Assembly: GCA_016198275.1 (NCBI GenBank)
Contig: JACQIX010000001.1
Location: 1 to 44,449 of the forward strand
Direction of reading: 5' to 3'
Source of the DNA: Candidatus Daviesbacteria bacterium
GTDB lineage: Bacteria > Patescibacteriota > Microgenomatia > Daviesbacterales > UBA10151
DNA length: 44,449 nt
Every line of letters starts with the position of its first letter. Positions within the stretch are counted from its first letter, which is position 1. The notes below the pieces were generated by a model. That model made no database searches. It saw nothing but the letters and a program-made list of their open reading frames with translations, and was not told the DNA's origin. Positions 19-33,721 of the stretch are shown piece by piece. The translations under genes were made by a program, and so were the position numbers.

Positions 19-927
19 TTTAATATCCGACACATCAGGTAAAATATGGATGTGTTAAATCTGACTAAGATAACAATAGCTTGGGAAATGTATGAGTCTG
101 GTATTCCTAAGGCTCATATAGCCTCTAAGCTACGATTAACCAGGGAAACAGTTCATATCTGGATTAAGGCTATACAGGAATGTGGTCTGTTGGAATTCCT
201 GGATAAATATACTAATGCCAAGAAAGGTAGCAGAGAGAAGAGGAAGATTGATGGACTCTTAAAGGCACGGATCTACAAATTAAGAGAAGATTATAGGGAT
301 TGTTGTGGCCAGAAAATCAGGGAGTTTCTCCTTGATGAGTATGGAATAACACTTTCCACGACCACTATTTACAAAGTATTAGGAGAAAAGTTTAAGTTAA
401 GGAGTAAATGGAAGAAAAACCAAATAAGAGGACCAATCCCTGAGGCAGATAGCACTAGAGAGGTAATACAGATGGATACAGTGGATTTTGGGGCTGTGTT
501 TGCCTTTACAGCAGTAGATATCTTTAGCAAGGAGATATCAGTTAGGCTATATCCATCCTTAACTGCTAAAGATGGCTTAGATTTCCTAAACTTCTCCTTC
601 AATAATAGATTTAACCATACACAACTTCTTCAAACTGATGGAGGACCAGAATTTAAAGCTGAGTTTAGATCAAGTGTGTTCAACTATGCTGATAGATTCA
701 GAGTATCAAGACCCTACAAGAAGAATGAGTAATCCTACATAGAAAGTTTTAATAGGAGTTTAAGAAAAGAGTGCTTGGGTTGGAGTAAATACCTACCTAA
801 AGATATACCTGACCTTGAAAAAGAGCTGCAAGATTATTTACAATATTATCATACTAAAAGACCTCATATGAGTTTAAACATGAAGACACCTAATCAGTTT
901 TTAAAAGAACTAGTGTCGGATATTTAA
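19..927 (+). mobile_element. IS481/IS3-like insertion sequence with 15-bp terminal inverted repeats
   Basis: TTTAATATCCGACAC (19-33) and GTGTCGGATATTTAA (913-927) are inverted repeats (14/15 match) enclosing a transposase reading frame. Confidence 0.75.
46..927 (+). pseudogene. IS481/IS3-family DDE (rve) transposase interrupted by an in-frame TAA
   Basis: N-terminal HTH, then rve core (IQMDTVDF, TDGGPEF). Stop at 730-732, after which the same frame continues SYIESFNRSLRKECLGW...HTKRPHMSLNMKTPNQFLKELVSDI to TAA at 925-927. Confidence 0.8.
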
Positions 928-2018: not shown

Positions 2019-2102
2019 GCCCGGGTGCTGGAATTGGCAGACAGGCACGTTTCAGAAGCGTGTGCTAGAAATAGCGTGGGAGTTCAACTCTCCCCCTGGG
2101 CA
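2019..2102 (+). tRNA. tRNA-Leu(CAG)
   Basis: Acceptor GCCCGGG/CCTGGGC, anticodon arm CACGT-TTCAGAA-GCGTG, long variable arm, T arm GGGAG-TTCAACT-CTCCC. Confidence 0.93.
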
Positions 2103-3061
2103 CTAGCAGGTAAGGGATCAATATTTGGCCATTCATCTAAGAAAACTTGCAATACTTTGTTTCTCAAAGATCTTATTAGAGGATCACTATTATATCCTCT
2201 ATTTGCCATTAAACCTTTTTTGATTCTCAAAAATTCTATAACCATTTCGGCTTGTGATTTTTTAAAATATAGATATGGCTTAACATCGGTTAATAACTTT
2301 AATAGATCTTCTCCGTTAACTTCCCACTTATATGAGGGGACCTCCGCCTTTGTTTTACTTGCACCACTTTTTTTAGTTGGCTTAACGCCACCGTATTTTT
2401 CAAACAAAGCCTCAAGAAGGTTATATCTTACAGAAACTATATTACCTTTGGCTAGGAATTCCGGGCGGGATCCTCTATTGGTACGATAGAGTCCTAAGGA
2501 CATATCAGCATCCAAAGTTGCAGCTAGTCTTTCTTGAGTAGGTAGAGATGTTTCAGGAGCTACTTGCTGTTTAGCTTGGTAAAGTCTTTCCTGGAATTCC
2601 CGTTCAACAACCATTCTTTCATAAGGATCAGCGTAAAGAGAAGGAACTTTAACAAAACCATAAATGTGTCTTCTTACTTCTCGTTTTTGGAGTAAAAATT
2701 CCTCAAATATTTCTGCTTGGGCTTGCTTAAAAGCTAAAAAAGGTCTAACCCAACGAAGGAATATAAGACATTCAACCGAGTTGCCGGTGACTAAATACCA
2801 CTCTTGGTGCCGACCGGTTGCAGTAAGAGTATTGAAATCATTAAGGTTCCAAGAGCGACCATTAATAATTCCTCCTTGTATAACTTCTAACTTTCTTCTA
2901 TCATCGCCGTATATAGCCAGGCAGGGTTGAAAATCAATATTATCAGGTGTTCTATCACTAGGTCTTGAGTGGCTGTTAATAGAAAAATTTAACGCCTCAT
3001 CCATAAACGCTCCCCAATATTGTATATTGGCTTGAGGTTGATGTTCGACTCTTGAATTCAT
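2084..3061 (-). CDS. Degenerate two-repeat LAGLIDADG homing-endonuclease-like protein
   Basis: Motif-like segments WGAFMDEALNFSI and LAATLDADMSLGLYR, each followed by a motif typical of the family (VRPFLAFKQAQAEIFEEF and VKPYLYFKKSQAEMVIEF). Stop codon lies inside tRNA-Leu(CAG). Confidence 0.6.
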   Translation of the reverse strand: MNSRVEHQPQANIQYWGAFMDEALNFSINSHSRPSDRTPDNIDFQPCLAIYGDDRRKLEVIQGGIINGRSWNLNDFNTLTATGRHQEWYLVTGNSVECLIFLRWVRPFLAFKQAQAEIFEEFLLQKREVRRHIYGFVKVPSLYADPYERMVVEREFQERLYQAKQQVAPETSLPTQERLAATLDADMSLGLYRTNRGSRPEFLAKGNIVSVRYNLLEALFEKYGGVKPTKKSGASKTKAEVPSYKWEVNGEDLLKLLTDVKPYLYFKKSQAEMVIEFLRIKKGLMANRGYNSDPLIRSLRNKVLQVFLDEWPNIDPLPASAQGES

Positions 3062-3175: not shown

Positions 3176-3258
3176 GCCGGGGTGGTGAAACGGTATACAC
3201 GCTACCTTGAGGTGGTAGTGCCCGTAAGGGCGTGGAGGTTCAACTCCTCTTCCCGGCA
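3176..3258 (+). tRNA. tRNA-Leu(GAG)
   Basis: Acceptor GCCGGGG/TCCCGGC, anticodon arm CTACC-TTGAGGT-GGTAG, variable arm GTGCCCGTAAGGGCGT, T loop TTCAACT. Confidence 0.93.
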
Positions 3259-3296: not shown

Positions 3297-3511
3297 GGGC
3301 ACTTAGCTCAGTGGGTTTGAATGTCTAAACGACATTCAAACGGGTTGCTTCCTTAAAGAATTTACCATAAAATAACGTAGCAACCCAGGAAGAGCGCTTC
3401 GTTTGGACTCGTAGCTCAGTTGGTTAGAGCGTCTCATTTACACTGAGAAGGTCCCCTGTTCGAGTCAGGGCGGGTCCACAGATGTCGGGGGTTCAAATCC
3501 CTCAGTGCCCA
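3297..3511 (+). pseudogene. Interrupted tRNA (Val-like) with a D-loop insertion and a complete tRNA-Val nested in its anticodon region
   Basis: GGGCACT (3297-3303) pairs perfectly with AGTGCCC (3504-3510). D stem GCTC (3306-3309)/GAGC (3392-3395), anticodon 5' strand CTTCG (3397-3401), T arm GGGGG-TTCAAAT-CCCTC (3487-3503). No 3' anticodon-stem strand (CGAAG) was found. Confidence 0.75.
3405..3478 (+). tRNA. tRNA-Val(TAC)
   Basis: Acceptor GGACTCG/CGGGTCC, D arm GCTC..GAGC, anticodon arm TCTCA-TTTACAC-TGAGA, T arm CCCTG-TTCGAGT-CAGGG. Confidence 0.93.
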
Positions 3512-4214
3512 CAACTTGTCTGCGCAGTCCATTAATAGGTCTAAGATATTTCCGAAAGTTTTCTTCCCCTAGCCACACATCTAATATTTCTTGACTTACT
3601 CCTCCAAAAAGTGCTTGAGGTACGCTTACTGCTATGTTCCTCCTAGTATATCTTGCTACATTATGGGCTGCTCCAATGAAAAGTATGCCTACCTTTTCAG
3701 GGGTCAATGTTTTTGCAATATTGACTGCTATATGTTTATCCCTGACAGCTGTTAGTAAATCTTGAAGTCTGTCTATTATCTGCCAGGGAAAATATCTAGT
3801 GATAGGGTATGAACTAAATAAAGCATTGGCAAACATAAAAGGCAGGACTCCTTCTGGTCCTACCACCTTAGCCCCTCGGTCCTGAAGATTTTTTAATAGA
3901 GCAAAACTATACGAGTTTGGTGCCAATTTATTGACCGTTAATCTTGTTCCCTCTTCGTCTAAAAACCTTGGTAGAGAGTCGTGATAAACAGTCATGTCGC
4001 GGGGATCATAAGGAAAGTTTTGCATAAACTCGTGGATTCGTCTCCAAATCCTAGGAACTATGATTCTTCCCTCTGCCTTTTCCGTCCTGCTTAAGAAATA
4101 ACCTACGTGTCCTAACTCATCGTTGATATGCACAATTGGGATAAGGAATAATTTTCGTTCAGCCACAGTGGCGATTCTAGGGTTAAAAATGTTTAAAGTC
4201 AATTGTTTCCTCAT
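3465..4214 (-). CDS. Hypothetical protein; C-terminus reads antisense through tRNA sequence
   Basis: Long ORF, divergent from glmS. Tail VVGTEGFEPPTSVDPP is the antisense translation of the 3' part of the interrupted tRNA and the end of tRNA-Val. Confidence 0.6.
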   Translation of the reverse strand: MRKQLTLNIFNPRIATVAERKLFLIPIVHINDELGHVGYFLSRTEKAEGRIIVPRIWRRIHEFMQNFPYDPRDMTVYHDSLPRFLDEEGTRLTVNKLAPNSYSFALLKNLQDRGAKVVGPEGVLPFMFANALFSSYPITRYFPWQIIDRLQDLLTAVRDKHIAVNIAKTLTPEKVGILFIGAAHNVARYTRRNIAVSVPQALFGGVSQEILDVWLGEENFRKYLRPINGLRRQVVGTEGFEPPTSVDPP

Positions 4215-33051: not shown

Positions 33052-33084
33052 CAAAGCATTAACCATTAAAGTAAAATAGATAAG

Positions 33085-33190
33085 CTTAAGACAGTAGGTT
33101 CTGAACAGAGAGCATAAATCCTACCGAGGCAGATAGAAAGTCCTCAGCTGAGGACTGACAATTATTATTTCCTCGCTTAAGCGGGGATTT
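33085..33190 (+). promoter_or_regulatory. Ribosomal protein L10 leader-like region with terminator-like hairpin
   Basis: GTAGG...CCTACCGAGG, palindrome GTCCTCAGCTGAGGAC (33140-33155), and CCTCGCTTAAGCGGGG (33171-33186) followed by ATTTTT directly before rplJ. Confidence 0.55.
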
Positions 33191-33193
33191 TTA

Positions 33194-33721
33194 ATGCCTA
33201 AAACAAAACAACAAAAAATCGAGACAGTTTTACAGCTGCAGCAAAAGTTAGACAAATCCAAGGCTGTGATTTTTGCAGACTATAGAGGTTTAACCATGAA
33301 GCAATTATCTGATCTGCGCAGCAAACTTTATGAACAAAATGCCGAATTTACCATCACCAAAAATTCCCTGCTAGAGCGGGCCCTTCCATCTTCCATCTTC
33401 CATCTTCCATCTTCTAATTTGGAAGGTCCTACTGCCACCCTTTTTGCTTACAACGATGAAATTTCCCCCATTAAAATTTTAGTAAAAGCCTTTAAAGATG
33501 CTACTTTAGGTAAAGTTAAATTTGGATTTTTAGGGACAAACTCCTTAATGGAGGCCCAAATCATCCAACTATCTTCTCTTCCATCTAAAGATGATCTTAA
33601 GGCCAAAACAGTGGGGGTATTGGCAGCTCCCTTGCAGAATATGGTGTCAGTGTTGCAAGCTAATTTAAGAAACTTGGTATATGCGTTGAGTGAAATTCAA
33701 AAACAGAAGGGAGGTGTTTAA
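33194..33721 (+). CDS. rplJ: 50S ribosomal protein L10
   Basis: SKAVIFADYRGLTMKQLSDLRSKLYEQNAEFTITKNSLL; followed by rplL. Confidence 0.95.
   Translation: MPKTKQQKIETVLQLQQKLDKSKAVIFADYRGLTMKQLSDLRSKLYEQNAEFTITKNSLLERALPSSIFHLPSSNLEGPTATLFAYNDEISPIKILVKAFKDATLGKVKFGFLGTNSLMEAQIIQLSSLPSKDDLKAKTVGVLAAPLQNMVSVLQANLRNLVYALSEIQKQKGGV
33383..33417 (+). repeat. Heptanucleotide tandem repeat (CTTCCAT)4 plus CTTCTAA inside rplJ
   Basis: Direct reading; encodes LPSSIFHLPSSN in frame. Confidence 0.95.

Follow-up and report, generated by a model that had tools for sequence, protein, structure and literature searches.

The window, meaning the whole 44,449-nt stretch analysed, is contig 6 of an assembly of 788 kb in 41 contigs with a listed completeness estimate of 84%, and the named records with pattern matches are Candidatus Daviesbacteria and other Patescibacteria MAGs. 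For the assembly as a whole, 37 tRNA genes were listed by the tRNA search, those for Val having the anticodons CAC, GAC and TAC. Near its start the window has the gene order Leu(GAG)-Val(TAC) common to relatives, and the complete tRNA-Val(TAC) found there lies between the pieces of a second, outer tRNA. The features of the locus are as follows.

2084..3061, minus strand: LAGLIDADG-like ORF of 325 aa (LAATLDADMSLGLY) between tRNA-Leu(CAG) and tRNA-Leu(GAG), with no Pfam match
3176..3258, plus strand: tRNA-Leu(GAG) from the tRNA calls, the syntenic upstream neighbour, 38 nt 5' of the outer tRNA
3297..3314, plus strand: outer tRNA-Val(TAC), type B, positions 1-18 (acceptor 5' strand, TA, D stem 5' strand, AGTGG), 18/18 identical to the intact tRNA of G010/G014
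3315..3341, plus strand: hairpin P1 of the D-loop double-hairpin element (GTTTGAATGTC-TAAAC-GACATTCAAAC), with covariation over 61 copies
3342..3386, plus strand: hairpin P2 of the D-loop element (GGGTTGCT...AGCAACCC), showing covariation over 61 copies and, on the 3' side, a conserved TANAAT
3387..3390, plus strand: right end of the D-loop element, AGGA, kept in most copies
3391..3404, plus strand: outer tRNA-Val, D stem 3' strand and anticodon 5' strand (AGAGCGCTTCGTTT), 14/14 identical to the intact tRNA
3405..3478, plus strand: inner complete type-A tRNA-Val(TAC), the sole Val(TAC) gene found in the assembly
3480..3511, plus strand: outer tRNA-Val 3' part (anticodon stem end, variable loop, T arm, acceptor 3' strand, A73), 32/32 identical to G010/G014

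The inner gene is a complete canonical tRNA-Val(TAC) (ARAGORN; Rfam tRNA, 68.8 bits), and the acceptor strands around it are perfectly complementary (GGGCACT at 3297-3303 and AGTGCCC at 3504-3510), in agreement with the original prediction of a complete tRNA-Val(TAC) within a second, interrupted tRNA. Position 3479 is a C of ambiguous assignment. The three outer pieces match positions 1-18, 20-33 and 41-72 of the 72-nt intact tRNA-Val(TAC) of G010 and G014, two other genera, without a mismatch, so that all 64 surviving bases (18+14+32) are identical and the match is far beyond chance. In both genomes the intact gene lies directly 3' of tRNA-Leu(GAG), like the outer pieces in the window, and on the strength of the matches and this shared place the outer tRNA is identified as the former resident tRNA-Val(TAC), type B. 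It is interrupted twice, by a 76-nt double hairpin in the D loop (3315-3390, two adjacent hairpins in place of one missing T) and by the complete type-A tRNA in the anticodon arm, where ACATCGA (positions 34-40, including the last two anticodon bases) is missing. Of the D and T arms that had been predicted to match, the T arm is intact and the D arm, holding the insert, is not an ordinary one. Positions 3297-3404 fold with z = -4.0, and a test of the outer 3' half (acceptor complement and T arm) gives 15 for the window, with a maximum of 14 among 326 controls.

The ancestral outer tRNA had been predicted to read CTTCG-loop-CGAAG-ATGTC and to have lost the 3' strand of the anticodon stem on entry of tRNA-Val; relatives read CTTCGTTTACATCGAAGATGTC, and this stretch was indeed lost on entry of another tRNA. 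Comparison of the locus in related genomes, which had been proposed as a check, recovered the same syntenic gene intact in G010/G014 and the nest again in G058. The double-hairpin element, the fact that the outer tRNA is of the same isoacceptor, and the nuclease nests of relatives and of the tRNA-Asn locus of the own genome had been missed.

The outer tRNA is almost certainly a dead type-B tRNA-Val and the inner one the working tRNA. The inner gene, type A, has the acceptor GGACTCG and is divergent from type B, yet it is the same isoacceptor as the outer tRNA, and type A occupies the Leu(GAG)-Val place in many other family members. Its loss is expected to be harmful, although a further Val(TAC) copy may hide in the 84%-complete assembly. 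It had also been proposed that, once RNase P and tRNase Z had freed the inner tRNA, the outer halves might be joined in trans or serve as stable tRNA halves. The outer acceptor stem of 7 bp is perfect and the T arm intact, as this would require, but the seven missing bases leave the halves without a complete anticodon arm, the D loop is blocked by the 76-nt insert, the sole intact Val(TAC) found sits between the halves, and in relatives the outer 3' half is missing (the close relatives G046 and G004), decayed (G006 and G011) or, in G006, present only as scraps, all of which makes functional halves or a split tRNA highly improbable. A relic, also among the original suggestions, is the best reading of the outer tRNA, whose 5' half is now in the leader and whose 3' half is in the trailer of the inner tRNA. 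For annotation, cloverleaf halves flanking a tRNA need not be a split tRNA. The C-terminal end of a minus-strand open frame of unknown family (3465-4214) crosses the outer 3' half in antisense and reaches the inner tRNA (GTEGFEPPTSVDPP), and this antisense tail is probably spurious.

The nesting of a complete tRNA in a broken outer tRNA of the same isoacceptor is seen repeatedly, for Val, Ile, Ala and Gly. The test of the outer 3' half gives 15 in a tRNA-Ala nest (L055) and 14 in a tRNA-Ile nest (L036), against the same 326 controls, and the broken outer tRNA-Ile of G047 has an intact counterpart in G048 (L081). At the Val(TAC) locus of the family, the intact B state is present; a B fragment stands before an intact B in G057; A is nested in B in the window and in G058, where the join is exactly ...CCA|GAAGATG; the B 5' half stands before A in G046 and G004; scraps of B surround A in G006; and the reverse case, an A 5' half before an intact B, is found in G059. 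An assembly error at the nest is unlikely because the same architecture occurs in independent genomes, and the window nest is real, recurrent and explained in outline. A search of the openly accessible literature, with subscription journals outside its scope, found no description of such tRNA-in-tRNA nests.

Beyond complete nests, 36 of the 180 tRNAs sampled are preceded, at most 400 nt upstream, by a repeat of their 5' end (at least 77% over 18 nt), against 3.65 with probes of other isotypes; the sample is enriched for such loci and the fraction is not a genome-wide rate. Dead copies lie downstream of the tRNA in G042 and G045. An exclusively upstream placement of the copies was considered as proof of function and is weakened by ascertainment and by these downstream copies.

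Several nests in relatives contain an ORF for a GIY-YIG nuclease. At the Leu(GAG)-Val locus of G011 the order is B 5' part, A-Val, GIY-YIG ORF and B 3' part; in G056 it is Gly 5' part, GIY-YIG, Gly and Gly 3' part; in G048 it is Val 5' part, GIY-YIG, Val ending in CCA and Val 3' part; and in another family of the class (L247) the Gly arrangement of G056 is found again, its end cut by the contig. In the own genome, the tRNA-Asn locus has a 5' fragment, a GIY-YIG ORF (E = 7.8e-15) and an intact tRNA. GIY-YIG ORFs with active-site residues lie inside a split tRNA in L224, L167, L017 and L247. The proteins are about 80 aa long, without a separate DNA-binding domain, and match Pfam PF01541 at 1e-14 to 1e-19 with invariant active-site Arg and Glu. 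The nuclease-bearing inserts are flanked by near-identical direct repeats of the outer tRNA of 22-34 nt and break it in the T stem or T loop, and in these nests a short hairpin replaces the anticodon arm. GIY-YIG genes lie at most 200 nt from a tRNA in 7 of 30 cases in the family (P = 7e-5) and in 18 of 29 in the class (P = 2e-19), where 3.6% is expected from tRNA density, both samples having been picked by nuclease score alone. In another family of the class, L254 (reverse complement, 1350-1810) has two A-type tRNA-Val fragments in succession, followed by a GIY-YIG ORF and then by an intact B-type tRNA-Val, an order that looks like serial takeover in more than one round. No GIY-YIG ORF or remnant was found in the window's own nest, around 3405, and this nest is at most a nuclease-less derivative.

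The nests are probably the result of an in-situ takeover of tRNA genes by cassettes of the nuclease type. A cassette of a small free-standing GIY-YIG nuclease and a complete tRNA would lodge in a resident tRNA, split it and supply the replacement. In the window the outer tRNA is the former resident tRNA-Val(TAC), broken and a tRNA no longer, and the divergent inner tRNA-Val(TAC) has taken over its job from inside. The window nest would have arisen from such a cassette event or from the repair of an anticodon-arm break made by a nuclease, its nuclease ORF would have been lost later, and the short double-hairpin DNA element would be an independent arrival in the dead 5' half, at its D loop. The identity of the outer and inner tRNAs, the synteny, the recurrence, the nests that hold a nuclease and the dispersed, covarying element are observed; we infer that the nuclease cuts the tRNA gene and that the inner tRNA resists it, as well as the order of events and the nuclease loss in the window. 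Against a takeover are the lack of a nuclease ORF or remnant, of direct repeats and of a short anticodon-arm hairpin in the window nest, its break in the anticodon arm and not in the T stem or loop, the small GIY-YIG proteins with no separate DNA-binding domain, whose target is thus only putative, and the observations that the visible T arm of the L247 outer tRNA equals that of the inner one and that the replacement is not always visibly recoded.

The alternative that the inner tRNA entered by illegitimate recombination or as a reverse-transcribed mature tRNA, with no nuclease and with decay of the dead halves, would fit an inner gene that begins exactly at the mature 5' end (window, G046 and G021) and the G058 join, which looks as from a mature tRNA with its CCA end. 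CCA is encoded by some genes here, however, so that an exact join is no proof of an RNA step, and neutral entry is made unlikely by the repeated occurrence of nests, in many genera and for more than one isoacceptor, and by nuclease ORFs that lie within these same nests far more often than chance would give. Takeover by a cassette or nuclease break is preferred as the simplest account covering all locus states. A bolder form, which we offer tentatively and at somewhat less than even confidence, is that the GIY-YIG cassettes may be natural home-and-rescue elements that break an essential tRNA gene and carry a cleavage-resistant isoacceptor, so that tRNA alleles would be replaced again and again, A by B and B by A, across the Patescibacteria class, with the window as a fixed, nuclease-less footprint.

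Introns can invade essential RNA genes because they are spliced out, and group I introns sit in bacterial tRNA anticodon loops; here the invasion problem is apparently solved without splicing, by a spare copy of the target. Archaeal and algal split and permuted tRNA genes restore a full tRNA from separated halves, and the nests likewise have tRNA halves apart in the genome, but these halves lack anticodon-arm bases and have a full tRNA between them. Bacterial group I introns of tRNA anticodon loops home by a nuclease in some cases (PMC3984707); the insertion in a tRNA is shared, whereas the nest has no intron or splicing and a spare complete tRNA restores function. A search for a catalytic group I intron core in the insert gave weak sub-threshold matches, and no Rfam family except tRNA reached its gathering score at this locus. 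SegB of phages T4 and T6 is a free-standing GIY-YIG homing endonuclease in tRNA gene arrays (PMC2988022, PMC13096335) that cuts inside tRNA genes at the motif RAWTSGAAC (PMC13096335), the complement of which, GTTCSAWTY, would fit the tRNA T loop. SegB and the nest nucleases share the GIY-YIG fold, a location at tRNA genes and no encoding by an intron, but SegB is located between tRNA genes, and those two papers do not describe it inside a split tRNA with a complete replacement tRNA, and the nest proteins are of about 80 aa and their hosts are Patescibacteria chromosomes. The rRNA insertions of CPR bacteria carry LAGLIDADG homing endonucleases, mostly in group I introns removed by splicing (PMC11270868). 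They are likewise a case of homing endonucleases invading essential RNA genes in the same bacterial radiation, but the target is rRNA, and the main text of PMC11270868 does not mention tRNA. In engineered home-and-rescue drives, which are synthetic and CRISPR based, a nuclease is directed at an essential gene, of which the cassette brings a substitute copy (PMC7968924); the logic is the same, but the nests are natural and their cutting step is inferred. If true, the takeover account would explain tRNA genes inside tRNA genes, suggest what the small GIY-YIG proteins abundant in Patescibacteria plausibly do, and provide a mechanism for replacing essential tRNA alleles, a natural counterpart of the engineered drives.

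The D-loop insert is likely a mobile double-hairpin repeat, and the element is a new repeat family, seen in this bacterial family only. A pattern built from three examples matches in 8 of 45 family genomes, and the covariance model R1 finds the element in 27 of the 45, with 1-8 copies each; it was not found outside the family among 374 genomes of the class, so that its roughly 60 copies are confined to this bacterial family in the genomes searched. In 61 aligned copies the three helices are kept, pairing holds in 96.3% of paired cells, covariation scores 0.623 (0.162 shuffled, at most 0.077 with slid partners) and double changes occur in 22 of 23 pairs. The copies were aligned by fitting to the model, and the figures therefore lean towards structure; an initial MAFFT alignment of 8 copies gave the same picture. 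Most copies occupy the D loops of tRNA 5' fragments; others sit in different hairpin loops, follow terminator-like hairpins or directly precede start codons. In L093, L097 and L100 the core comes after a terminator-like hairpin and ahead of the start codon, that of rplC in two genomes and otherwise that of rpoD. Junctions (GG^TAGAGC in L054 and L087) and a footprint (GCTCAG|GAAGAGC in L063) would fit insertion and loss among the relatives compared.

Another reading considered is that the 5' half, together with its three-way-junction core, works as a leader RNA, an attenuator or processing element, for tRNA and for mRNAs such as rplC and rpoD. The strong covariation of the helices, the position of the tested tRNA cases upstream of an intact tRNA, the mRNA copies before rplC and rpoD and the good conservation of the B 5' half among G000, G046 and G004 would agree with this. 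G-U pairs, however, make up 1.2% in P1 and P2 against 11.9% in the closing stem from the host tRNA or hairpin (Fisher P = 7e-12), which argues for palindromes kept at the DNA level; near-identical cores lie at different loci of one genome (98.9% between the Thr and His loci of G010; likewise 97.8% between the Val and Phe loci of UBA6257); the element is absent at the same tRNA in many relatives; and 5' fragments without the core exist (G011, G043). A leader function is on this evidence quite improbable, and a mobile DNA repeat is the preferred reading of the insert.

Rickettsia palindromic elements and mitochondrial double-hairpin elements are short paired hairpins, dispersed and inserted in or near RNA genes, as is the D-loop element. 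Hairpin elements of this kind are described in sponge mtDNA (PMC2800124); the element here is bacterial, lies in the D loop and other hairpin loops, and is unrelated in sequence as far as known. Rfam at permissive E-values gave nothing credible for the insert. A minus-strand hammerhead match (17.8 bits, cut-off 34) overlaps the inner D arm and was taken as chance. An integron attC site, suggested by the GTT/AAC ends, was rejected because these have the reverse orientation and the second hairpin does not retain GTT. Nor was target-site duplication accepted as the only origin of the 5' fragments, since the outer tRNAs match tRNA on both sides of the core (L059, L060 and L031). The TANAAT at a fixed place in P2 of most cores resembles local -10 boxes and would be part of a putative core promoter, but no -35 box is conserved. 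In Patescibacteria UBA6257, L041 (460-1057) has three tandem units of the first 18 nt of tRNA-Phe, core and tail, followed by one intact tRNA-Phe, and a further core copy lies before tRNA-Val. A second element lies upstream of tRNA-Val(TAC) in L029, L140, L155 and L151, where tRNA positions 1-8 are followed by TAGATAGTT-hairpin-AACTATCGCAAG... and the full tRNA, an arrangement like an 8-bp site duplication.

The LAGLIDADG-like ORF (2084-3061) lies 115 bp upstream of tRNA-Leu(GAG). It matches a clearer LAGLIDADG-like ORF in G055 (BLASTP 1e-6), itself without a Pfam match, and this weak relative is the only one in the 45 family genomes; a search of viral contigs gave no relative. It is a candidate homing-endonuclease relative. 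Near the contig start, a transposase-like ORF (46-732, plus strand) has rve integrase-core and HTH domains, and a ribosomal protein L10 leader (Rfam RF00557, 53.5 bits) is located at 33067-33202.
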